Origin: Victivallis sp. Marseille-Q1083
GTDB lineage: Bacteria > Verrucomicrobiota > Lentisphaeria > Victivallales > Victivallaceae
Length of the DNA: 64,000 nt
Reading direction: 5' to 3'
Assembly: GCF_903645315.1 (NCBI RefSeq)
Contig: NZ_CAHJXL010000001.1
Coordinates: 3,524,841-3,588,840, forward strand
This document shows positions 25,843-37,714 of the stretch, one piece after another. The position numbers and the translations under genes are program-made. The notes beneath the pieces were generated by a model. It saw only the letters and a list, made by a program, of their open reading frames with translations. It was not told the DNA's origin and did no database searches. Within the stretch, counting starts at the first letter, position 1, and each line of letters begins with the position of its first letter.

Positions 25843-27921
25843 ATGCTTAATAATCGTACTTTTCTGTTTTGCGGTCTTCTCGCTGCCATGCTTGCCGGTT
25901 GTAAATCTCAGGAGGATTTCGTCAACGAGCGGGCAGAGTTTGCGATCTCTTACTTCGATAAAATTGATAAAATGGTGCCGGATGCCGGCAGAGTTTATAC
26001 ATTGCCGGAGTGTATTGCGGCGGCGCTGGAATCCAATCTGGATTTGAAGGTCAACCAGATCAACGAACAGGTGGCCAAGGAGCGCAAGACTGCCGAGGCG
26101 CTCGGCATGCTGCCGGACCTTTATATTTCCAACGGCACGACCTATCGCGACAACCAGCCGGGATCGACCAGCATCAATGTGAGAACCGACGAACAGTCGC
26201 TGGCGGCGAGCCGCAGCTCGGAGAAGTTCGAAAACAGCCTGCGGCTTGAGATGGCGCTCAGTCTGCTGGACTTCGGGTTGGCCTATGTCAATTTTGCCCA
26301 GGCCCAGGACCGTGAGCTCCTGGCGCAGTATCAGACCCGGCGCGCCGCCCAGAATCTGGCGCTGGAAGTGGCGCAGACCTATTATAAAGTGGCGGTGGCG
26401 CAGCAGGCGATCGAGGATACCGAAGCGTTGCTGGAGCGCTGCCGCAATGTCCAGGCCGAATTGGAGAAGCTCGGGTTGGACAAGAAGATTTCGCCGTTCC
26501 GGATGTTCGACGAAAGCCAGCGGTTCATTCAACTGGAAAAGCGGCTGGTTGCCTATCAGCGCAGTTATGAAAATTCCTGTACCGAATTGCGGGCGCTGAT
26601 GGGATACAAGCCGACGGCGGTGATCCGGGTGGATGCCGGCAATCTCGACAACATCAATCCGGTGCAGTTGCCGGCGATCGCCGAGCTGGAAAAATTGGCG
26701 CTCTATCAGCGGCCGGAACTGTATCAACTGGACATCAATACGAATATCACCGTCAACGAAGGCCGCAAAGCGTTGCTGATGATGCTGCCGAACGTCCGGA
26801 TGTTCGTGGATTTCAACAATTCCAGCAATCCGCTGCTGTACAACCAGTCCTGGTGGGAGATCGGCGTGCGCGCCGCCTACAATTTGCTGAAACTGCCGCA
26901 GCAGATGAAGCGTTATCAGGCGATCGGCCAGGAAGAGGAGATGCTGAAGGCGCAGTTGCTGGCGCTGTCGGTCGGCGTGTTGTCGCAGGTGCGCATCGCG
27001 GTGACCAACGTCGGCGAGGCGGAAAATCGTTATCGGATCAACAAGCGGGTTTACGACTCCTACAGTCGTTATCGGGAGGCGGCGATCCAGGCGCACACGT
27101 TGACCGGCAGTCTGTCGCAGCTGGAGCTGGACCGGGTGGAGCTGGAGACGGCGGAAGCCAAGATCGACTGTCTGATTGAGCTGGGCAACTATTATGTCTC
27201 CTATTACCGGCTGTTGAACATGGTCGGCATGTCGGAATTGTCCAACGAAACCTTGCAGCAGATGAACGATCGGTTGCAGGAAGCCATGCGGCGGATGGAG
27301 GACAAAACTGCCGGTGAAGCGTCGGCTTCGCCGGCGCCGGCGCTGGCGGCGGCGATTCCGACGGAACCGGACGCCGAGGAACCGGCGCCGAAAACGGAAT
27401 CGGCGGACCGGAGCATCGTCTGCGGCAAGGTGATGCGGCTGAAAGAGCCGCTGGACAATTGTCGTTATGTGCTCGCTTCCAGTTTCGCCGAAAAACTGCG
27501 GGTGCTCTGTGTGCTGCGGGGCGAAGAGGCGGCGTTTGCCGACGCGCTCGGCGAACAGTTGCTGGTGGAAGGCGAATTGGCGGAGGATCCGAAATTCAAA
27601 GTGCCGGTGATGACGGCGATGCAGTGGAAAGCACTGCCGGCTGACAATGTGGTCCGGCGGCAGGAATACCGGCCGGATCCGAACCGGCAGGAAGCGATTG
27701 CCGGCAAATTGATCCGGTTGCGCGACAATCGGCTGAATTTGAAATACGCGTTGGCGGAGGAGCAGCCGGAGGGACGCCGGATTGTCGGTTACCTGGCCAA
27801 CACCGCCGACGATTGCGGGGATTATCTGGGGAAAGAGGTGGAGATTCGTGGTGCGGCCCGGTTGATCGAGGATTGGGGAGTTCCGATTGTCGGGATGGAA
27901 GCGATGAAGGTGCGGAATTGA
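25843..27921 (+). CDS. TolC-like outer-membrane lipoprotein with C-terminal duplicated domain
   Basis: The protein has 692 residues. The signal peptide ends in a lipobox, LAGC at residues 17-20, so it is lipid-anchored. Residues about 50-470 match the outer-membrane efflux (OEP/TolC) fold: TLPECIAAALESNLDLKVNQ and long coiled helices (ALEVAQTYYKVAVAQQAIED). An Ala/Pro linker (about 485-520) leads to two related beta-type modules at about 527-600 (GKVMRLKEPLDNCRYVL) and 621-690 (GKLIRLRDNRLNLKYAL), which typical TolC proteins lack. It is the first gene of the operon with the giant surface protein and three adaptor or protease-like genes, and probably forms the outer-membrane channel. Confidence 0.8.
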   Translation: MLNNRTFLFCGLLAAMLAGCKSQEDFVNERAEFAISYFDKIDKMVPDAGRVYTLPECIAAALESNLDLKVNQINEQVAKERKTAEALGMLPDLYISNGTTYRDNQPGSTSINVRTDEQSLAASRSSEKFENSLRLEMALSLLDFGLAYVNFAQAQDRELLAQYQTRRAAQNLALEVAQTYYKVAVAQQAIEDTEALLERCRNVQAELEKLGLDKKISPFRMFDESQRFIQLEKRLVAYQRSYENSCTELRALMGYKPTAVIRVDAGNLDNINPVQLPAIAELEKLALYQRPELYQLDINTNITVNEGRKALLMMLPNVRMFVDFNNSSNPLLYNQSWWEIGVRAAYNLLKLPQQMKRYQAIGQEEEMLKAQLLALSVGVLSQVRIAVTNVGEAENRYRINKRVYDSYSRYREAAIQAHTLTGSLSQLELDRVELETAEAKIDCLIELGNYYVSYYRLLNMVGMSELSNETLQQMNDRLQEAMRRMEDKTAGEASASPAPALAAAIPTEPDAEEPAPKTESADRSIVCGKVMRLKEPLDNCRYVLASSFAEKLRVLCVLRGEEAAFADALGEQLLVEGELAEDPKFKVPVMTAMQWKALPADNVVRRQEYRPDPNRQEAIAGKLIRLRDNRLNLKYALAEEQPEGRRIVGYLANTADDCGDYLGKEVEIRGAARLIEDWGVPIVGMEAMKVRN

Positions 27922-27961
27922 AACCCGGAATGGATCCGGATGCGTAAGGATCGGTGGCGGT

Positions 27962-30900
27962 ATGTCTTTTGAATTGGAGAAAAGGATTTTGTTCGACGGA
28001 GCCGGCTTTGCCGAAGTGGCGGCAGCCGCGGAGGCGGTCGAAGCGGTGGATCATGATCACGATGCCGGTGTTCCGGCCGATGGCCGGGACGCGGTCGAAC
28101 AGTTGCTGGATGCCGACCTCGGCGGCCTGCTGCCGGCGGACCAGGCGGCAGGTTCGGTTTCGGGCGGGACCGATGTGGTGTTTATTGCCGGATCGCTGCC
28201 GGATAGCGAATTGATCGGCCAGGTGGCTGCGGAACGCGGCGAAGTGGTCATTCTGCAGTCCGGAGCGGACCCGTTTCAGCAGATGGCCGATTATCTGGCC
28301 GGCCGCTCCGATGTGGCGGCGATCCATATCATCAGTCACGGCGAAGCCGGCAAGCTGGTGATCAACGGCATTTCCATCGATGCCGATTATCTGGAAAGCC
28401 ATCGCGGGGCGGTCGGGGCGCTCGGCGAAGCGATGACGCCGGATGGGGATATTCTGCTCTATGGTTGTGATCTGGCCGATTCCGCCGCCGGGCGGGAGTT
28501 GATCGGGCAGCTCGCTTCGTTGACCGGCGCGGATGTGGCGGCGTCGGAGGACGCCACCGGCTACGGCGGCGACTGGGATCTGGAATATCAGTTCGGCTTG
28601 ATCGAGACTGAGGCGATTCAAATCGACAATTACGATTACCTGCTCAGCAGCGCCGGAGAGACGATCTATGTCAAAGTGGACGGCAGCGACGCCTGGCTGG
28701 GGCGCGGCAATGTTTATACCGATTTGCAGACGGCGCTGCAGGCGGCCGGGGACGGCGATCAGATCTGGGTGGCTTCCGGCCGTTATGTGCCGACCCGGGA
28801 GATGGTGGACGGCGATCCCCGCAGCGTCTCTTTCGTGATCGGCGACGGTGTGGAGCTGTACGGCGGTTTCGCCGGGACGGAACATGCCGTCGGCGAACGG
28901 ACCGATTTCGGTTTCGGCGGGCGCAACGAAACAGTCCTGAGCGGTGATGTGCTGAACAACGATAGTTGGTCGGTGGTCGGCGATAGCTTTGTCGATGACG
29001 CCGGCTCGGCGGCCGACAATGCTTACCATGTCGTTTTCGTCGGGGAGGATGTCAGTTGCACGATCGACGGTTTTACGATCACCCGCGGGGTGGCGGCCGA
29101 CGTCGGTCGCGACGCCAATGGCGGTGGGGTTTACAACGCCGGGGAGGCGCTGATCCGCGACTGTTGTATTACGGTGAATTATGCCGCCAACGAAGGCGGC
29201 GGTATCTGGCTTGGCGGCGGCCGGCTGGAAAATTGCCGGGTGCTCGACAATGTCGCCGGCAATCAGGGCGGCGGCGTTTTCGCTTCCGATGCGAATGCCG
29301 TCATCACCGCCAGTGAAATTTCCGGCAACCGGACGATCGGCGCCGGCGGCGGCGGCGGCGGTGTTTTCATGGCCAACGGCAATCTGCGGGACAGTTGGCT
29401 GCATGACAACCACAGCAGCAGCGCCGGCGGCGGATTGTACATTTGCGCCGGAACGGCGGAGAATAGCAATGTGACTTACAACCACAGTCTGGACGGCGGC
29501 GGCATCTGGATTGCCGGCGGTGAAGTGGTTTCCTCCAGGGTGTTCGGCAATACCGCCCAGGTCAACGGCGGCGGTATTTACGCGATTGGCGGAGCGGTGA
29601 CGCAGACGGAGTTGGTGAACAACAGCGCCGGCGGCATGGGCGGCGGCCTGTGGAGCCTGAACCTGGAACGCGGTGAAAATCTGCTGGTGGTCAACAATTA
29701 TGCCGAACGCAGCGGCGGCGGCATGTACCTGCTGCTCGGTACGGTGGTCAACGCGACGCTGGTCAACAATCTGGCCGCTTACGGCAGCGGCGCTTACCTG
29801 GGCACCGGCGGGGTGCTTCACAATTCCATTTTGTGGGGCAACCGGGAGTCAGGCGGTGATAAAACGCAGTTGCGGCTGGCCGGCGGCAATATTTTGAATT
29901 CCGGAGTCGAAGGCGGTGTGGCGGTCGGCAGCGGTAATTACAAATTCAGCAGTGACAATTCCGGCAGCCGGCCCGGCGAACTCTATTTTAACTTCGTTTC
30001 AGCGACTTCGTTTGCCGGCAACGCGACGAGTCAAGCGCAACTGGCGGAGCTGGCTCGGGCCGACTGGCAACTGGCCCGCGGTTCCCATGCGGTCAACCGC
30101 GGCGACAACGGTATTGTCATCACTGAAAATATTGCCGAAGACCTGATCGGCCACGACCGTATTCACAACGCGGCCGGTGGCGGCATTGTCGATCTCGGCG
30201 CGTATGAATCGGTCTGGAAGGGCGTTCAGATTGCGCCGGTGATCGACGATATCATGTACGGCGATACTGCGCGGCTGCCGGACCGGAGCGAAGCCGGTTT
30301 GGAAATTGCCTATGAGAGCCGGGATACTTCAATCATCGTCATCGACGGCAAGGAATTGACCGGGGTAAAAGTCGGCGAAGCGGATATCGGCATTAAAATC
30401 GACGGCAATGACAACTGGGAGGCGTTGGACTATACGCAAACCGCGGTCAAGGTGACGCCGCGGCCGATTACCATCATCGCCGACGATCAGCGGAAAGTGT
30501 ACGGCGAACTGGATCCGGAATTTACTTTTGCCTACGGCGCCGGCAGCCTGCAGTTGGTTTTTGGTGACAAAATTACTCTCGACCGCGGCGACAAGGGGGA
30601 AAACGTCGGTGTTTATGATATCGATCAATATCTGCTCGAAGACGGCAATGGCGGTAAAAATTATGCGGTGACGCTGGTAAAAGGAGAATTGACGATTACG
30701 AAGCGGTCGATCACGATCGTCGCGGACGATCAGCATAAAACTTACGGCGAATCGGACCCGAATTTCAGCTATCAGGTGGTTGGCGGTCTGGTCGGCAGCG
30801 ACAGCGTGACGTTGAACCGCAGCGACAAGGGCGAGAATGTCGGCGAATACGCGATCGACGACTATGACTTGACCGGCGCCGAGAATTACGATGTGACTTT

Positions 30901-33472
30901 CGTGGAAGGGACGTTGACGATCACGAAGCGGTCGATCACGATTGTTGCGGACGACCAGCATAAAACTTACGGCGAATCGGACCCGAATTTCAGCTGTCAG
31001 GTGGTCGGCGGTCTGGTTGGCAGCGACAGCGTGACGTTGAACCGCAGCGACAAGGGTGAGAATGTCGGTGAATACGCGATCGACGATTATGACTTGACCG
31101 GTGCCGAGAATTACGATGTGACTTTCGTGGAAGGGACGTTGACGATCACGAAGCGGTCGATCACGATTGTTGCGGACGACCAGCATAAAACTTACGGCGA
31201 ATCGGACCCGAATTTCAGCTGTCAGGTGGTCGGCGGTCTGGTTGGCAGCGACAGCGTGACGTTGAACCGCAGCGACAAGGGTGAGAATGTCGGTGAATAC
31301 GCGATCGACGATTATGACTTGACCGGTGCCGAGAATTACGATGTGACTTTCGTGGAAGGGACGTTGACGATCACGAAGCGGTCGATCACGATTGTTGCGG
31401 ACGACCAGCATAAAACTTACGGCGAATCGGACCCGAATTTCAGCTGTCAGGTGGTCGGCGGTCTGGTCGGCAGTGACAGCGTGACGTTGAACCGCAGCGA
31501 CAAGGGTGAGAATGTCGGTGAATACGCGATCGACGATTATGACTTGACCGGCGCCGCGAATTACGATGTGACTTTCGTGGAAGGGACGTTGACGATCACG
31601 AAGCGGTCGATCACGATTGTCGCGGACGACCAGCATAAAACCTACGGCGAAGCAGACCCGAATTTCAGCTGTCAGGTGGTCGGCGGCCTGGTTGGCAGCG
31701 ACAGCGTGACGTTGAACCGCAGCGACAAGGGTGAGAATGTCGGCGAATACGCGATCGACGATTATGACTTGACCGGCGCCGCGAATTACGATGTGACTTT
31801 CGTGGAAGGGACGTTGACGATCACGAAGCGGTCGATCACGATTGTCGCGGACGACCAGCATAAAACCTACGGCGAATCGGACCCGAATTTCAGCTATCAG
31901 GTGGTTGGCGGTCTGGTCGGCAGCGACAGCGTGACGTTGAACCGCAGCGACAGGGGTGAGAATGTCGGCGAATACGCGATCGACGATTATGACTTGACCG
32001 GCGCCGAGAATTACGATGTGACTTTCGTGGAAGGGACGTTGACGATCACGAAGCGGTCGGTCACGATTGTTGCGGACGACCAGCATAAAACCTACGGCGA
32101 ATCGGACCCGAATTTCAGCTGTCAGGTGGTTGGCGGCCTGGTCGGCAGTGACAGCGTGACGTTGAACCGCAGCGACAAAGGCGAGAATGTCGGTGAATAC
32201 GCGATCGACGATTATGACTTGACCGGCGCCGAGAATTACGATGTGACTTTCGTGGAAGGGACGTTGACGATCACGAAGCGGTCGGTCACGATTGTTGCGG
32301 ACGACCAGCATAAAACCTACGGCGAATCGGACCCGAATTTCAGTTATCAGGTGGTCGGCGGCCTGGTTGGCAGCGACAGCGTGACATTGAACCGCAGCGA
32401 CAAGGGCGAGAATGTCGGCGACTATGCGATCGACGACTATGACTTGACCGGCGCCGCGAATTACGATGTGACTTTCGTGGAAGGGACGTTGACGATCACG
32501 AAGCGGTCGATCACGATTGTTGCGGACGACCAGCATAAAACCTACGGCGAAGCAGACCCGAATTTCAGTTATCAGGTGGTCGGCGGTCTGGTCGGCAGCG
32601 ACAGCGTGACGTTGAACCGCAGCGACAAGGGTGAGAATGTCGGCGACTATGCGATCGACGACTATGATTTGACCGGCGCCGCGAATTACGATGTGACTTT
32701 CGTGGAAGGGACGTTGACGATCACGAAGCGGTCGATCACGATTGTCGCGGACGACCAGCATAAAACTTACGGCGAAGCAGACCCGAATTTCAGTTATCAG
32801 GTGGTCGGTGGCCTGGTTGGCAGCGACAGCGTGACGTTGAACCGCAGCGACAAGGGCGAGAATGTCGGCGACTATGCGATCGACGACTATGACTTGACCG
32901 GCGCCGCGAATTACGATGTGACTTTCGTGGAAGGGACGTTGACGATCACGAAGCGGTCGATCACGATTGTCGCGGACGACCAGCATAAAACTTATGGCGA
33001 AGCAGACCCGAATTTCAGCTATCAGGTGGTTGGCGGCCTGGTTGGCAGTGACAGCGTGACGTTGAACCGCAGCGACAAGGGCGAGAATGTCGGCGAATAT
33101 GCGATCGACGAGTACCGTTTGAGCGGGATGGATAATTATGACGTGACCTTTGTCGAGGGATCGTTGACCATTGTTGCCAGGCCGGTCGGTGATGGCGTCG
33201 CGCAATTCAATATCGACAAACAGCATCAGGAAATCGACCGCAGTTTTATGGAGTTGGAAGCGTTCACGCTGGAGCGCAGCCGGCTGGTTGCCGAATTGAA
33301 TGCCGCGGTGAAACATCTGCCGCCGGAAGTGGAAGAATTGACGCCGCTGCCGGACGGAGAATATCTGCTCAGCGATTATGCGCCGTTGCGGCCGGTCCGC
33401 GAGGAGATCGAAATTCCGGATCTGCTGAAAACGCAGTTGGACCGGGATCTGGAATCGCTGTTGGTGATCTGA
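27962..33472 (+). CDS. Giant repetitive surface protein: DUF4347, beta-helix, MBG repeats
   Basis: The protein has 1836 residues and no classical signal peptide. It begins MSFELEKRILFDGAGF, matching the LE-x-R-x-LFDGA N-terminus common to DUF4347 and LEPR-XLL surface proteins and possibly an export signal. Residues 71-229 are a DUF4347-like domain (DVVFIAGSLPD, then AAIHIISHGEAGKLVING and DILLYGCDLADSAAGRELIG). Residues about 231-755 form a right-handed beta-helix rich in GGG-x-W/Y turns. A degenerate MBG unit starts at 836, and eleven near-identical 75-residue MBG units follow at 916-1740. Residues 1741-1836 are an acidic, Leu-rich tail. No RTX nonapeptides and no LPxTG anchor were seen. It is probably an adhesin or matrix protein exported by the neighbouring genes. 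Confidence 0.85.
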   Translation: MSFELEKRILFDGAGFAEVAAAAEAVEAVDHDHDAGVPADGRDAVEQLLDADLGGLLPADQAAGSVSGGTDVVFIAGSLPDSELIGQVAAERGEVVILQSGADPFQQMADYLAGRSDVAAIHIISHGEAGKLVINGISIDADYLESHRGAVGALGEAMTPDGDILLYGCDLADSAAGRELIGQLASLTGADVAASEDATGYGGDWDLEYQFGLIETEAIQIDNYDYLLSSAGETIYVKVDGSDAWLGRGNVYTDLQTALQAAGDGDQIWVASGRYVPTREMVDGDPRSVSFVIGDGVELYGGFAGTEHAVGERTDFGFGGRNETVLSGDVLNNDSWSVVGDSFVDDAGSAADNAYHVVFVGEDVSCTIDGFTITRGVAADVGRDANGGGVYNAGEALIRDCCITVNYAANEGGGIWLGGGRLENCRVLDNVAGNQGGGVFASDANAVITASEISGNRTIGAGGGGGGVFMANGNLRDSWLHDNHSSSAGGGLYICAGTAENSNVTYNHSLDGGGIWIAGGEVVSSRVFGNTAQVNGGGIYAIGGAVTQTELVNNSAGGMGGGLWSLNLERGENLLVVNNYAERSGGGMYLLLGTVVNATLVNNLAAYGSGAYLGTGGVLHNSILWGNRESGGDKTQLRLAGGNILNSGVEGGVAVGSGNYKFSSDNSGSRPGELYFNFVSATSFAGNATSQAQLAELARADWQLARGSHAVNRGDNGIVITENIAEDLIGHDRIHNAAGGGIVDLGAYESVWKGVQIAPVIDDIMYGDTARLPDRSEAGLEIAYESRDTSIIVIDGKELTGVKVGEADIGIKIDGNDNWEALDYTQTAVKVTPRPITIIADDQRKVYGELDPEFTFAYGAGSLQLVFGDKITLDRGDKGENVGVYDIDQYLLEDGNGGKNYAVTLVKGELTITKRSITIVADDQHKTYGESDPNFSYQVVGGLVGSDSVTLNRSDKGENVGEYAIDDYDLTGAENYDVTFVEGTLTITKRSITIVADDQHKTYGESDPNFSCQVVGGLVGSDSVTLNRSDKGENVGEYAIDDYDLTGAENYDVTFVEGTLTITKRSITIVADDQHKTYGESDPNFSCQVVGGLVGSDSVTLNRSDKGENVGEYAIDDYDLTGAENYDVTFVEGTLTITKRSITIVADDQHKTYGESDPNFSCQVVGGLVGSDSVTLNRSDKGENVGEYAIDDYDLTGAANYDVTFVEGTLTITKRSITIVADDQHKTYGEADPNFSCQVVGGLVGSDSVTLNRSDKGENVGEYAIDDYDLTGAANYDVTFVEGTLTITKRSITIVADDQHKTYGESDPNFSYQVVGGLVGSDSVTLNRSDRGENVGEYAIDDYDLTGAENYDVTFVEGTLTITKRSVTIVADDQHKTYGESDPNFSCQVVGGLVGSDSVTLNRSDKGENVGEYAIDDYDLTGAENYDVTFVEGTLTITKRSVTIVADDQHKTYGESDPNFSYQVVGGLVGSDSVTLNRSDKGENVGDYAIDDYDLTGAANYDVTFVEGTLTITKRSITIVADDQHKTYGEADPNFSYQVVGGLVGSDSVTLNRSDKGENVGDYAIDDYDLTGAANYDVTFVEGTLTITKRSITIVADDQHKTYGEADPNFSYQVVGGLVGSDSVTLNRSDKGENVGDYAIDDYDLTGAANYDVTFVEGTLTITKRSITIVADDQHKTYGEADPNFSYQVVGGLVGSDSVTLNRSDKGENVGEYAIDEYRLSGMDNYDVTFVEGSLTIVARPVGDGVAQFNIDKQHQEIDRSFMELEAFTLERSRLVAELNAAVKHLPPEVEELTPLPDGEYLLSDYAPLRPVREEIEIPDLLKTQLDRDLESLLVI
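30707..33181 (+). repeat. Eleven tandem 225-bp repeats (MBG domain units)
   Basis: The core DDQHKTYGE recurs every 225 bp, with its DNA beginning CAGCATAAAA at 30731, 30956, 31181, 31406, 31631, 31856, 32081, 32306, 32531, 32756 and 32981. Copies differ by a few bases, mostly silent, plus alternations such as SYQ/SCQ, ESD/EAD and AEN/AAN. The eleventh copy diverges at its 3' end. Unequal recombination between copies should change the length of the stalk. Confidence 0.95.
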
Positions 33473-33483
33473 GGAGAAAAACT

Positions 33484-34257
33484 ATGATGTGTCCTGTTTG
33501 GCGATGGTGCGCCGTCTGGATGGCCGTCGTCCTGTCGGCTGTTGCCGGTGAACCCGGTGTCGGGGGGGAGTTTATCGCGGTGCTGATCCCGTATCAGGAA
33601 GCGGTGGTTTCGGCGCGGGTCAGCAGTGTGGTCGGCGAATACCGGTTGAAGGATGGCGACGCCGCCGCCAAGAATGCGGTGATCGTCGAACTGGACACGG
33701 CGGAATTCCTGCCGTTGAAGGAAAAGGCGGAGGCGGTTTATCAGGAAAGCGTCACCCAGCGCAATTATTACAGGAAAATTTACGACGGCAATCTCGAACT
33801 GTTTCAAAAAGGCCTGCTCGGCGAACAGGAACTGGCGAAGAGCAAGCTGGACTGGGAATTGGCCGTGGCCCGGGAAAAAACCGCCATCGCCGATTTGCGG
33901 TTGACCAGCTTCAATGTCGTGGAATGCTCGATCCGGATGCCGTTCGACGGCAAGCTGGCCGAACGGTTGTGCAAGGCGCACGAATTCGTCCGGGCCGGTA
34001 TGCCGCTGGTGTCGGTCATCGACGACAGCAAGGTTTACGCCGTCGCTTTCCTGCCGCTGGAATTGCGCAGCCGGTTGCGGCTGGGAGAACCGCTGTGGTT
34101 TTTGACCGATGAGCAGGCGATGCCGCTGGAGGGGAAAATCGCCTTTCTGGCACCGCGCGGCGATGCCACCAGCGGTAATTTCGAATTGCGGTTGTTGCTG
34201 GACAATGCCGACGGGAAATTGCTGCCCGGCATGTCCGGAGTGATTCGCTGCCGATGA
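33484..34257 (+). CDS. Periplasmic adaptor (HlyD/MFP-like) of the adhesin operon
   Basis: The protein has 257 residues, with a signal peptide (VWRWCAVWMAVVLSAVAG). The first lipoyl half shows VVSARVSSVVGEYRLKDGD and KNAVIVELDTAEF, then a helical hairpin (about residues 80-140), the second lipoyl half (CSIRMPFDGKLAERLCKAHE) and a beta-barrel ending LLPGMSGVIRC. It is short for an adaptor, as the membrane-proximal domain is missing. GAGGAG precedes the ATG, and an ATG one codon later is equally possible. The stop overlaps the next start (ATGA). Confidence 0.8.
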   Translation: MMCPVWRWCAVWMAVVLSAVAGEPGVGGEFIAVLIPYQEAVVSARVSSVVGEYRLKDGDAAAKNAVIVELDTAEFLPLKEKAEAVYQESVTQRNYYRKIYDGNLELFQKGLLGEQELAKSKLDWELAVAREKTAIADLRLTSFNVVECSIRMPFDGKLAERLCKAHEFVRAGMPLVSVIDDSKVYAVAFLPLELRSRLRLGEPLWFLTDEQAMPLEGKIAFLAPRGDATSGNFELRLLLDNADGKLLPGMSGVIRCR

Positions 34258-35642
34258 CTACCGAAGCGCAGCAGTTGCGGGGGCGCCTGGCGGCGTTGTC
34301 CCAGATCATCAAACTGGGGCAGGGGGCGTTTGAAGCGCCGACGCCGGCGGCGTTGGCTTCTTATATCGTCAACCGGAGCCTCGGTTTGATTCCGGCGGAT
34401 CGTTCCACGCTGTTGGAGGTCCGGCAGAGACGAGTCCGGGTTCTGGCCCAGGCCGGCCAGGCCAAAGTGGTTGGCGATTCGGCTTACAATCAGGCGCTGC
34501 GGACGATTGCGCCGGCGTTTCCGGCTTTGGAGTCGGTGACGCTGTTGGCGCCGGATGTCGAAAACGACGTTTGTCCGCTGCGGGATCGCACCGCCTTCAG
34601 CGCGGACCGGGAAATCCTGGTGGTCGTTCCGCTGCGTTCCGGCCGGCGGCGGCCGGACGATTGTGCCCGGTTCTGGGTATTGGGCTTCTGGCAGGAGGCG
34701 TCCCGGCCGGCGGCGGACGGCAGTCTGCCGTTGTTGCGGGTGCTGTACCGTTTTTACGCCGATGCGTTCGAAAGCCTGGACGGCCGGGGAACCGGTCGTT
34801 TCCGGCTGGCGCCGGGGCGGTGGGGACGGAGCCGTTGGCTGTGGCTGGCGGTGATTGTGGCGGCGCTGTTGGTGTTCGTCCGGGTGCGGGATACGGTTAG
34901 TGCCGATTTTGAGCTGCGTCCGCTGGAGGAAAATGTCGTCTATGCGCCGTTTCCGGGAACGTTGCGGGAGTGCCTGGTCGGCGACGGTGCGCCGGTGAAG
35001 GCCGGCCAGGCGATTTTGCGTTATGACAGTGACGAGGTGAATTTCAAATTGGTGCAGGCGATGCGCCGCTGCGAATTGGCGCGGATGCGCTATGAGGTTG
35101 CCCAGAAACAGTCGGTCAAGGACCCGGCCAGCCTGGCTGCCGCCAAATTGCTGCAGTTGGAGATGGCCAGCGAGGCGGCCGATGTGGATTTGTGCAAGTG
35201 GTATGTCGAACATTCGACGCTGTACGCCGGTGCCGATGGCCGGGTTTTCTTCAACGATATCGCCAAACTGCTGAACCGTTCGCTGACGGCGGGAGAGCGG
35301 TTGTTCGAGGTGATTCCGGAGCATGGCGCGTTGATTGCGGAAGTTTATTTGAACGAACGGGACGCTGCGGTGCTGACCGATCCGGAACAATTGTCGCTGG
35401 CGCTTTATTTGCATACCCGGCCGGAACAGTCGCTGCGCGGTGAATTGCTGTCGGTCAGTCCGCAGGCGTTGCCGATCGGTCTGAATCATTACGGCTATCG
35501 GATTCGGGTGAAGCTGGCGCCGGAAGAAAATTCACCCGAATTGCTTTCCGGCATGCGCGGCATTGCCCGGGTGCAGGGCCCGCGCGTTTCACTGGGCTTT
35601 TATCTGTTCCGCAATCTGCTGATCTGGTGGCATGGCGTATGA
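34254..35642 (+). CDS. GAF-like domain fused to HlyD-type membrane adaptor
   Basis: The protein has 462 residues. Residues about 1-175 are soluble and look GAF-like (LASYIVNRSLGLIPADRSTL, then REILVVVPLRSGRRR). A single transmembrane helix lies near residues 193-212 (RWLWLAVIVAALLVFV). Residues 215-462 are HlyD-like: VVYAPFPGTLRECLVGDGAP, a helical hairpin, STLYAGADGRVFFNDIAKLL and a barrel ending LLSGMRGIARVQG. This topology puts the GAF-like part in the cytoplasm and the adaptor in the periplasm, so it may link a cytoplasmic signal or cargo contact to the export channel. It is coupled by ATGA overlaps to both neighbours. Confidence 0.75.
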   Translation: MTTEAQQLRGRLAALSQIIKLGQGAFEAPTPAALASYIVNRSLGLIPADRSTLLEVRQRRVRVLAQAGQAKVVGDSAYNQALRTIAPAFPALESVTLLAPDVENDVCPLRDRTAFSADREILVVVPLRSGRRRPDDCARFWVLGFWQEASRPAADGSLPLLRVLYRFYADAFESLDGRGTGRFRLAPGRWGRSRWLWLAVIVAALLVFVRVRDTVSADFELRPLEENVVYAPFPGTLRECLVGDGAPVKAGQAILRYDSDEVNFKLVQAMRRCELARMRYEVAQKQSVKDPASLAAAKLLQLEMASEAADVDLCKWYVEHSTLYAGADGRVFFNDIAKLLNRSLTAGERLFEVIPEHGALIAEVYLNERDAAVLTDPEQLSLALYLHTRPEQSLRGELLSVSPQALPIGLNHYGYRIRVKLAPEENSPELLSGMRGIARVQGPRVSLGFYLFRNLLIWWHGV

Positions 35643-37714
35643 CGGCAGCGAGGGAAGAGAACGTCCCGCAGGTCGCTCCGTTGCGGCGGGACCTGAAATT
35701 GCTGCACAATGCCGAAGGCGCAGTGTGGTTCGATCCGGTGGCGGATCGTTATTTTCAATTGGATGAGGCGTTGCTGACGTTATCCGGTTTTTTGAAGGAC
35801 GCGCTGCCGCTCGATGAATTGCTCGCGCGGGGAGCCGCCGCCGGCTTGGATCGGGAAACGGTGCTGCAGGGGGTGCTGTTTCTGAAACATCACCATCTGC
35901 TTCGTCTGCCGCCGGAGGAGGCGATGGCGGCCGCCGGTAAAGTTGCGGCGCTGGAACGCGGCATGCTCTGGCAGAAAGTGCTTTCTTCCTATCTGTTTTT
36001 GCAGTTTACCCTGTGTCGTCCCGACCGCTTTCTGACCCGGACGCTGCCATGGGTCCGGATGATCTTCAACCGGCCGGTGGTGTGGCTGCTGCTGCTGTCG
36101 GCGGCGGCCGGTTATCTCGGCCTGATCCGGCATTGGACGGCGGTCGGCGATATGTTTGCGCATTCTCTATCGCGGCGGGGACTGATCAATTATGCGCTGG
36201 CGGTGACGGCGGTGAAGATCATTCATGAGCTGGCGCATGCTTATGTCGCCAAATCCTACGGCGTCCGGGTGCGTCGGTTCGGCCTCGGTTTCATCGTTTT
36301 TCTGCCGCGCTTGTTTACCGATGTCACCGATGGTTGGCAGTTGTCGGATCGCCGCGGCCGGATTTGGATCGACGCGGCCGGAATCGCCGCCGAAGTAGCG
36401 ATCGGCGGTCTGGCGGCACTGATGTGGGCGGCTTCGTCGCCGGGTGCGCTGCATACGGTCTGTTTTTATCTGTTTGCCGTCAGCGCGCTGAATACGGTCT
36501 TCGTCAACGGCAATCCGCTGATCCGCTATGACGGTTATTTTCTGCTGATGGATGCGTTGGGCATCCATAATCTGCAGCAGCGCAGTTTGCAGGAGGTGCG
36601 ACGGCGTTTTCAGCATCATGTGCTCGGCATGCCCGCCGGTCCGGCTCCGGAACGGTCGGGCTGGCTGCTGGTTTACGGTATCGCTTCGTTCATTTATCGC
36701 CTGTTCTTGTATACGGCGATCATCATGGTGGTCTATTTCAGGTTCACCAAGACGATCGGCCTGGCTTTGCTGCTGCTGGAATTCTATCTCCTGGTCTGGC
36801 GGCCGCTGCGGCGGGAGTTTCAATGGTATTGGCGGCAGCGGGAGCGCCTCCGGCCGGCCCGGGCGGTGCTGTTCGGCGGGGGGCTGCTGGTTCTGCTCGG
36901 TATCCTGGCGCTGCCGTTGCCGTGGACGTTGCGGCTGCCGATGGAAGTGTCGGCCGGAGCGGTGGAGTACTTCTATGTCCGGCAGCCGGGATACCTGCAG
37001 AATTGGGCGTCGGATGGCCAATGGGTGGAACCGCAACAGCCGTTGATTGAAACGATGAATCCGGAATTCGACAATGCGGCGCAAAGGGCGCAATTGGCTT
37101 TCCGCCGTGCGGAGGAAGAGTTCCGGCAGGCCGGCCGAACGCCGGAACGGCAACGGGAATTGCCGGCGCTGGAACAGCAGCGGCAGCGGGCGCTGGAAAA
37201 TGTCCATGAAATGGTGCGGCGGCAGCGGCAATTGCGCTGCGAAAGCGCCTTCGCCGGCCGTTTTGCCCGGATTGCCGATTCCGCCCATGTCGGTGAATTT
37301 CTGGCGCCGGGCCGTTTGATGGGGGTGCTTTACGATGAAAAACCGTTGATTCGGGCCTATGCCGGCGAGAAGGAGATCGGCTGGTTGCGGGAACGGCAGG
37401 AAGTGCAGCTTCGCCTGGCCGGTGAATGGAACAGTTGCCGGGGGATCATCCGTTCGGTCGGCGCGATTCCGGTGGCGGTGGTCAATTCGCCGTTGCTGGA
37501 TCTCTACGGCGGGCCGTTGGCGACGGTTCGCGGCCGGGATGGCCGTCCGGAGTTGCAGGAACGCTTTTACCTGGTGGAAATCGTCCCGTCGGCGGGAGAA
37601 TGGTCCGGGCAGTTCGGCCGCAGCGGTGAAGTGAGCTGCCGGCGTTACCGCTCGTTGGGGATGCTGTTGTTCCGGCAACTTTTCCAGTTGCTGCGCCGGG
37701 AACTGAGTTTTTGA
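35639..37714 (+). CDS. M50-type membrane protease with PqqD-like N-domain and HlyD-like C-domain
   Basis: The protein has 691 residues. Residues about 20-90 resemble PqqD (AVWFDPVADRYFQLDEALLT, then VLQGVLFLKHHHLL). The membrane core carries the zinc motif HELAH at 196-200 and the third ligand region NPLIRYDG at 292-299, as in site-2/M50 proteases. Both are intact, so it is likely active. After further helices, residues about 440-691 form a HlyD-like periplasmic part with a coiled coil (about 480-540). The ATG at 35639 overlaps the previous stop (ATGA); a GTG 12 bases upstream is also possible. It may take the place of the inner-membrane ATPase of type I secretion or process the exported protein. 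Confidence 0.8.
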   Translation: MTAAREENVPQVAPLRRDLKLLHNAEGAVWFDPVADRYFQLDEALLTLSGFLKDALPLDELLARGAAAGLDRETVLQGVLFLKHHHLLRLPPEEAMAAAGKVAALERGMLWQKVLSSYLFLQFTLCRPDRFLTRTLPWVRMIFNRPVVWLLLLSAAAGYLGLIRHWTAVGDMFAHSLSRRGLINYALAVTAVKIIHELAHAYVAKSYGVRVRRFGLGFIVFLPRLFTDVTDGWQLSDRRGRIWIDAAGIAAEVAIGGLAALMWAASSPGALHTVCFYLFAVSALNTVFVNGNPLIRYDGYFLLMDALGIHNLQQRSLQEVRRRFQHHVLGMPAGPAPERSGWLLVYGIASFIYRLFLYTAIIMVVYFRFTKTIGLALLLLEFYLLVWRPLRREFQWYWRQRERLRPARAVLFGGGLLVLLGILALPLPWTLRLPMEVSAGAVEYFYVRQPGYLQNWASDGQWVEPQQPLIETMNPEFDNAAQRAQLAFRRAEEEFRQAGRTPERQRELPALEQQRQRALENVHEMVRRQRQLRCESAFAGRFARIADSAHVGEFLAPGRLMGVLYDEKPLIRAYAGEKEIGWLRERQEVQLRLAGEWNSCRGIIRSVGAIPVAVVNSPLLDLYGGPLATVRGRDGRPELQERFYLVEIVPSAGEWSGQFGRSGEVSCRRYRSLGMLLFRQLFQLLRRELSF

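Follow-up and report, generated by a model that had tools for sequence, protein, structure and literature searches.

By what route does a very large surface protein reach the cell exterior when the operon encoding it supplies a TolC-like outer-membrane factor and HlyD-type adaptors, but no ATP-binding cassette (ABC) transporter? The question is raised by five genes of Victivallis sp. Marseille-Q1083, located in a 64,000-nucleotide stretch of its 4.82 Mb genome (C1:3524841-3588840, hereafter the window). An original prediction, made from the sequence of the window alone, described them as plus-strand genes with tight or overlapping junctions, and this description holds: the five open reading frames (ORFs) run head to tail in a tight operon, with intergenic distances of +40, +11, -4 and -16 bases in gene order. 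They encode the TolC-like protein, the presumed substrate, a free HlyD-type adaptor and the two inner-membrane HlyD fusions that had been predicted, one with a possibly GAF-like domain and the other with an M50 intramembrane protease preceded by a PqqD-like domain. Starting from gene content, conservation, co-occurrence, domain architecture and a conserved active site, we give somewhat better than even credence to the reading that the operon encodes a leader-guided, M50-centred complex for the export and processing of very large surface proteins, served by an exchangeable motor.

What we infer from these observations is a process of leader binding, cleavage, export, conduit assembly and motor use. 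The substrate would begin with a leader unlike a Sec signal, in which the motif LExRxLFDGA is followed by an alanine-rich stretch. This leader would be bound at the cytoplasmic face by the N-terminal domain of the M50 protein, a putative recognition element (RRE) of the kind known from ribosomally synthesized and post-translationally modified peptides (RiPPs). The intramembrane zinc site would then cut within the run of small residues that follows the motif, whereby the protein is released or let through. The conduit would be built by joining TolC to the free HlyD protein and to the HlyD parts of both fusions.

By its profile matches, the window M50 protein belongs to the M50 family and yet falls outside the curated daptide and LiaK/YydH groups: it reaches 1.3e-55 with NCBIfam daptide_HExxH (189 bits against a cut-off of 300) and 5.3e-5 with LiaK, of the YydH/LiaK family (23 bits against 225). 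HExxH is present in all 85 members of the fusion family, which were collected without a motif filter, and NxxPxxxxDG in 82 of them, both motifs being intact in 82 of the 85; the three deviating second motifs (NGNFFIRYDG, NGNIFIRYDG and NGNPLLRFDA) all retain the aspartate. In a 70-row alignment (A4), H200, E201, H204, N294, P297, D302 and G303 are invariant; the rows were drawn from 83 HExxH-filtered members without the three of deviating second motif (L023, L054 and L083), so that the invariant columns are partly selected. Because both motifs are conserved across the members, the M50 protein is very likely an active protease, and the intact zinc site noticed earlier proves to be a property of the family. 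An AlphaFold2 model of the fusion (mean predicted local distance difference test score, pLDDT, 93.3) contains a helical membrane region, consistent with a location of both motifs in membrane helices.

Ahead of the protease, the N-terminus is modelled as three strands followed by three helices (b-b-b-a-a-a). A profile of the N-terminal 90 residues, built from 67 sequences and compared with the PDB, gave as its four best matches PqqD (3g2b, 0.0021), TfuB1 (0.013), TbiB1 (0.093) and PaaA (0.13), the last three of which we take to be leader-binding RRE proteins. Pfam PqqD is also the commonest match among the M50 fusion members (16 of 67), and the window protein by itself gives none. The PqqD-like N-terminus of the original prediction is therefore upheld by the family profile, and these matches point to an RRE domain and putative leader binder. 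At the other end of the protein, the window sequence has a weak HlyD match of its own in Pfam (0.018), but the profile of the family picks up MacA/EmrA-type adaptors, with values from 7.4e-19.

The second fusion has a single hydrophobic segment (residues 191-209), and its model (mean pLDDT 91.7) shows a confident alpha/beta N-terminal domain ahead of the transmembrane helix. The earlier description of this protein as a GAF-like/HlyD fusion stands in its HlyD half (HlyD_3, Table 1), whereas the GAF reading is weak: Pfam GAF occurs in 3 of 53 relatives, at best with 1.3e-6, and the window protein has no such match. None of the HlyD proteins of the operon scores as a type I adaptor, TIGR01843 being either unlisted or at 21.8 against a cut-off of 208.65. 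The outer-membrane factor is of TolC type by its Pfam OEP match; with NCBIfam type_I_sec_TolC it reaches 3.5e-8, below the cut-off, and a phmmer search of the PDB with the window TolC gave no matches. Its N-terminus contains LAGC, which we presume to be lipobox-like. Several of the twelve MBG_2 stretches in the presumed substrate are nearly identical in sequence.

Table 1. Features of the operon, with positions in the window.
Feature	Position	Strand	Evidence
TolC-like outer-membrane factor, probable lipoprotein, 692 aa	25843..27921	+	Pfam OEP 3.4e-28
Large surface protein, presumed substrate, 1836 aa	27962..33472	+	LExR leader, DUF4347, 12 MBG_2 stretches (Pfam)
Leader motif LEKRILFDGA, then Ala-rich stretch	27974..28003	+	N-terminus of the 1836 aa protein
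DUF4347 domain with conserved H-G and Y-x-C	28175..28615	+	Pfam 1.2e-40
Periplasmic HlyD/RND-type adaptor, 257 aa	33484..34257	+	NCBIfam RND_mfp 2.4e-32, over cut-off
(GAF-like) domain - one transmembrane segment - HlyD fusion, 462 aa	34254..35642	+	Pfam HlyD_3 3.7e-12
RRE (PqqD-like) - M50 intramembrane protease - HlyD fusion, 695 aa, GTG start	35627..37714	+	Peptidase_M50 1.6e-9
PqqD-like RiPP recognition element (predicted leader-binding)	35666..35938	+	family profile vs PDB
Zinc-binding HELAH	36224..36238	+	intact in window protein
Second active-site motif NGNPLIRYDG	36506..36535	+	intact in window protein

In the 1836-residue protein no 19-residue segment exceeds 1.6 on the Kyte-Doolittle scale, a crude test for a Sec signal. 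Near a start codon, 24 of 90 loci have the pattern LE.R.[LM][LFM], with 27 occurrences in all, compared with one match for the reversed pattern; one of the 27 is spurious, lying inside the SecA-like protein of L150. The motif starts large proteins in the Lentisphaeria and Magnetospirillum relatives and LEPR-XLL giants in Verrucomicrobiota, and its suggested value as the mark of a likely substrate is supported. The giant of L151 scores 16.3 with LEPR-8K (NF012209) against a cut-off of 17, and the window LEKRILFD protein does not match that model. The motif also heads short proteins: the small single-contig genomes of L155 and L156 hold four such LExR proteins in ORFs of 114-220 aa, for example LESRELFAAAAVPHH. 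They belong to RiPP-like clusters (L155:1932-11011 and L156:7241-17481), each with two LESRxLFA proteins, a radical S-adenosylmethionine (SAM) enzyme, a PqqD protein, an HlyD fusion, an HlyD protein and an RRE-M50-HlyD protein. The radical SAM enzyme of L155 is YydG-like (4.8e-32) and its cluster also encodes a weakly HprK-like protein; in L156, TolC adjoins the cluster.

The DUF4347 domain may be a clan-CD-like cysteine-peptidase domain, which we offer as a lead. Its H, G, Y and C are invariant in 22 aligned members, picked from the window and 28 relatives, some of those left out lacking the pair; Peptidase_C80 is weakly matched by 3 of the 22. PDB 9qpe chain G, titled DUF4347 domain-containing protein, gave a weak match only, the matches to de novo TIM barrels in the same PDB search look like chance, and phmmer with the DUF4347 region of L072 returned nothing from the PDB. 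On one lentisphaerote chromosome (L020:9178-12073), TolC, an LEDRILFDGA/DUF4347 protein in an open frame of 277 aa and an M50 fusion stand together, with no HlyD genes within 6 kb.

The Victivallis genome itself repeats the arrangement. Two further M50 fusions of the same type are present, each preceded by an HlyD gene and an HlyD fusion, and the resulting triad of HlyD, HlyD fusion and M50 fusion thus occurs in three copies, each with TolC and a DUF4347 protein, which makes the set more than a chance association. At C1:1153k the TolC gene is divergent and the DUF4347 protein begins LEDRILFDG; at C2:656k TolC is again present and the DUF4347 protein, which begins LEDRVLFEAA, is spread over three ORFs. 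In this third cassette (L117:7621-19633) the three ORFs of the surface protein are consecutive, in a frame-shift-like arrangement. The four DUF4347 matches in the whole genome fall in three loci, every one adjoining a triad. The LExRxLFD pattern, searched at DNA level, occurs three times: two occurrences are at the N-termini of DUF4347 proteins (in the window and at C1:1148k), and the third has a serine codon at the R position.

Beyond this genome, a profile from A4 (E<=1e-40) found the M50 fusion in 80 of 387 genomes of the phylum, spread over 54 of 197 genera; a few matches are partial. The named relatives considered, the best 80 of 115, represent Lentisphaerota, Planctomycetota, Chlamydiota, Alpha-, Beta- and Gammaproteobacteria and Desulfobacterales. 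Of these 80 loci, 67 have at least 3.5 kb of upstream sequence; in 54 of the 67, one short and one long HlyD gene lie within 6 kb of the M50 gene, and 5 more have two long ones. Among the 48 with at least 8 kb upstream, 29 have a TolC-like gene. The earlier suggestion of a distinct set of co-travelling parts, for which a co-occurrence search had been proposed, is in this way supported across phyla. One copy of the M50 cassette is on plasmid pMSR-1 of Magnetospirillum gryphiswaldense MSR-1, where the neighbouring annotated protein does not begin with LExR. In Escherichia coli, 24 of 5426 genomes match both the M50 gene and the stretch from TolC to M50 (22 of them over at least 80%), at 21 places on plasmids and four on chromosomes, one of the latter a fragment. 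Four E. coli records (three plasmids and one chromosome) share the order giant, TolC, HlyD, HlyD fusion, M50 fusion, under annotations such as Ig-like protein, TolC and efflux adaptors. Plasmid NZ_CP081687.1 (L261:6830-26581) encodes a 4459 aa LESRQLFDGA/DUF4347 protein, which starts with MTTIKNRRLRPRAHRFALESRQLFDGAALAE and whose DUF4347 region was found both by our own profile and by Pfam.

A conduit of this kind would need force, for which we propose an exchangeable motor: many Verrucomicrobiota, and also Acinetobacter, would use a dedicated SecA-like ATPase, and one clade of Lentisphaeria a type I ABC-HlyD pair. In many Verrucomicrobiota the M50 fusion gene is followed by a gene for a short SecA-like ATPase, and Acinetobacter also carries one; the loci concerned are L150, L151, L152, L153, L254-L257 and L090. 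The proteins measure about 620-770 aa (open frames of 622-770 aa). That of L151 matches SecA_DEAD at 2.9e-83 and has DEAD, preprotein-binding and second nucleotide-binding parts; the two that were scanned stay under all SecA and SecA2 cut-offs. A profile of this ATPase (A7), counted to E<=1e-175 only, found 25 copies in 23 of the 387 genomes, and each of the 23 also belongs to the 80 that match the M50 profile (hypergeometric 1e-17, a figure that ignores phylogeny). Of these copies, 22 lie just downstream of the M50 gene on the same strand, at a distance of -1 to 1196 bases. The Victivallis genome is without the short SecA-like ATPase, and its motor would probably be either the general SecA or one of two type I ABC-HlyD pairs whose genes lie outside the operon.

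Several observations weigh against a leader-guided complex with exchangeable motors. The cassette is not always complete: one or both HlyD genes were not found near the M50 gene in 8 of the 67 named loci, no TolC-like gene was seen in 19 of the 48 with at least 8 kb upstream, and 66 of the 90 loci gave no LExR protein by pattern, many of them being cut off upstream. When the M50 N-terminus was compared directly with two PqqD sequences in HHalign, the probability was only 8.7%, a weak result. With regard to the motors, the SecA-linked M50 proteins group together in the tree, but this grouping is unsupported (0.123); a Rhodopirellula genome (G145) has SecA paralogues of 661 and 809 aa that were not seen beside its M50 gene; and the window genome has a single SecA (1008 aa) and no ABC in the operon. 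Finally, 16 of 20 Lentisphaeria substrates carry at the C-terminus, and nowhere else within them, a motif like FKSDFEKLLDEL; the pattern was fitted on the same sequences, some of them close relatives. The C-terminus of the window protein does not match it.

The last of these points leads to the strongest rival explanation, since a C-terminal motif fits type I export from the C-terminus. An ABC-HlyD pair from elsewhere in the genome could move the substrate C-terminus first through the TolC of the operon, and the M50 triad would merely process or hold it, with the late-arriving LExRxLF end being caught and cut by the RRE/M50 complex and the protein thereby released, much as adhesins are retained and released in the LapA/LapG system. 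In PMC10868602 a Vibrio giant is described with an N-terminal LEPR-XLL and C-terminal RTX domains, an arrangement in keeping with such a division of labour. The genome, moreover, does possess the required transporters. A simple pattern search found no ABC-ATPase signature in any ORF of the 64 kb window, whose flanking ORFs were read by eye, outside the family-library scans. Two type I ABC-HlyD pairs are nevertheless encoded outside both operon and window, and the strict version of the claim, no ABC anywhere, is rejected on their account. The term "ABC-less" from the original prediction is accurate for the operon and many of its relatives, but not for the genome. As the ABCs of these pairs are 63-74% identical to the in-operon ABCs of rumen relatives, help from type I export is possible in the window genome; in favour of this rival, too, no TolC gene was found in the 20 kb around the pairs.

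The rumen relatives carry the link further. In L040, L045 and L054, a type I ABC with its HlyD immediately precedes TolC, the DUF4347 protein and the triad, and a long HlyD occupies the same upstream position in L043, L051 and L060. Five of these six type-I-linked loci were placed in the M50 tree (which was built without L250, read in the wrong frame, and without L054), and they form one clade with support 1.0, nested inside Lentisphaeria; for this reason the in-operon type I genes look like one late recruitment, a derived state that counts against type I export as the general route. The distribution of the transporters argues in the same direction. A profile of the window-type ABC matches 39 of 145 genomes of the phylum, including 12 of 15 with triad M50 (>600 bits), but also 18 of 18 sampled genomes of the same family without a triad M50, and this ABC is a general exporter of the group rather than a marker of the cassette.

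Across the 25 genomes with this M50, some of which are fragmented or of unstated completeness, a type I HlyD above the curated cut-off is present in 8 and absent from 17, six of the latter being single-contig. The idea that a conserved ABC always accompanies the set, which would reduce it to a type I variant, is rejected on these numbers and on the restriction of in-operon type I genes to one clade. Three Lentisphaeria among the 17 (G144, G040 and G046) have another ABC of ~600 aa beside an HlyD of 385-404 aa and are not regarded as ABC-free. The firmer ABC-poor cases are the single-contig Verrucomicrobiota G018, G091, G140, G099, G042 and G072, in which the HlyD neighbour was checked for the one or two best ABC matches; no ABC gene stands beside the cassette in the single-contig Verrucomicrobiota copies examined, and none is annotated adjoining the four E. 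coli copies examined. On balance, we regard type I export, with the triad only processing or holding the substrate, as unlikely, though it deserves to be kept in view.

A second rival explanation dispenses with an ATPase. The M50 protein would be translocase and protease in one, and the substrate would be drawn through by folding outside the cell or by the proton gradient. The small-scale model for such a device is an epipeptide protease known as EpeP or YydH, two names that we take to denote one protein. According to PMC10885120, EpeP is enough to produce the epipeptide EpeX and presumably performs both cleavage and export, although its deletion did not completely abolish production; according to PMC7026026, the last processing step and the export of YydF are presumably carried out by YydH. 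As an M50 protein to which both activities are ascribed, EpeP also serves as a small-scale precedent for the leader-guided complex. The below-cut-off matches of the window M50 protein to the YydH/LiaK and daptide protease families agree with this idea, as do cassettes in which neither an ABC nor a SecA-like gene was seen nearby (L155, L156, L068 and E. coli). However, the motorless movement of a chain of 1836-4459 residues is hard to explain, and many Verrucomicrobiota copies are paired with the SecA-like ATPase and one clade with an ABC. To our knowledge, site-2 proteases are not known as protein channels. The M50 protein as the translocase itself, one of the roles envisaged in the original prediction, is unproven, and a version without any motor seems improbable.

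M50 proteases act in signalling and in the maturation of pheromones or RiPPs, and the cassette could in principle be a device for regulated intramembrane proteolysis or for the export of cut leaders, with the surface protein leaving by another way; the RiPP-like clusters of L155 and L156 and the GAF-like sensor domain suggested in some relatives would suit such a role, but the linkage to TolC and giant proteins across phyla, the three HlyD-type proteins in each cassette and the lack of a recurrent regulator gene in the cassettes examined (by reading, L256 has a response regulator and a sensor kinase at its flanks, and L154 contains a LuxR-like gene) make this the least credible account of all.

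The leader-guided, M50-centred complex can also be framed more broadly, as a so far undescribed secretion system. In this form, an RRE-M50-HlyD protein, an HlyD fusion, an HlyD protein and TolC would build an envelope-spanning machine that reads LExRxL[FL], exports proteins of ~110 to several thousand residues, cuts them en route and works with interchangeable motors (SecA-like, type I ABC or none). This wider claim is made tentatively, at slightly less than even confidence. A literature search found no title or abstract beginning that describes the set; as preprints and most subscription journals were outside the search, this is no proof of absence. Beyond what was originally predicted, the analysis adds a putative leader-reading RRE, M50 copies linked to SecA, the RiPP-like clusters and the copies on E. 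coli plasmids. If the proposal is correct, it would account for the arrival of giant LEPR-XLL and DUF4347 proteins at the surface, connect RiPP maturation with protein secretion by way of a shared leader motif, and assign a SecA paralogue a function beyond the classical translocase. A review of tripartite exporters (PMC8277102) names as inner-membrane partners the ABC, resistance-nodulation-division (RND) and major facilitator superfamily (MFS) transporters, to which a leader-reading intramembrane protease would be added as a further component. Since copies reside on plasmids of M. gryphiswaldense and E. coli, these ideas can be tested in tractable hosts.

A comparison with known systems delimits what would be new. 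Type I secretion (ABC, HlyD and TolC) shares with the cassette a TolC-type factor, HlyD adaptors and very large repeat proteins in which no Sec signal is evident. In contrast to it, the cassette has no ABC gene, comprises three HlyD-type proteins, one of them fused to an RRE and an M50 domain, is associated with a conserved N-terminal leader and occurs in genomes where no type I HlyD passes the cut-off. Judged by the operon itself, the cassette would function in part as a type I system does, yet lacks two of the defining features, an ABC in the system and a type I HlyD. EpeP/YydH (LiaK) and the daptide M50 proteases have a membrane domain of the same kind, EpeP is thought to cleave and export, and a radical SAM enzyme recurs in two Verrucomicrobiota clusters; the known representatives, however, take short peptides, whereas here an RRE lies ahead of the protease and an HlyD domain behind it, with a likely conduit and giant substrates. 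SecA and SecA2 resemble the SecA-like protein of L151 in its DEAD, preprotein-binding and second nucleotide-binding parts, but the latter type is short, scored below all cut-offs in the two cases scanned and adjoins the M50 gene. The core of the N-terminal motif is the same as in LEPR-XLL (NF012209, LEPR-8K), where NCBIfam names a domain only; here that domain is tied to a specific cassette. In the LapA/LapG system, a protease likewise acts at the N-terminal end of a large adhesin and thereby governs its retention or release. LapG is a soluble periplasmic cysteine protease, whereas the present candidate is an intramembrane zinc protease with a putative leader-binding domain, which would act on the same end of a large protein.

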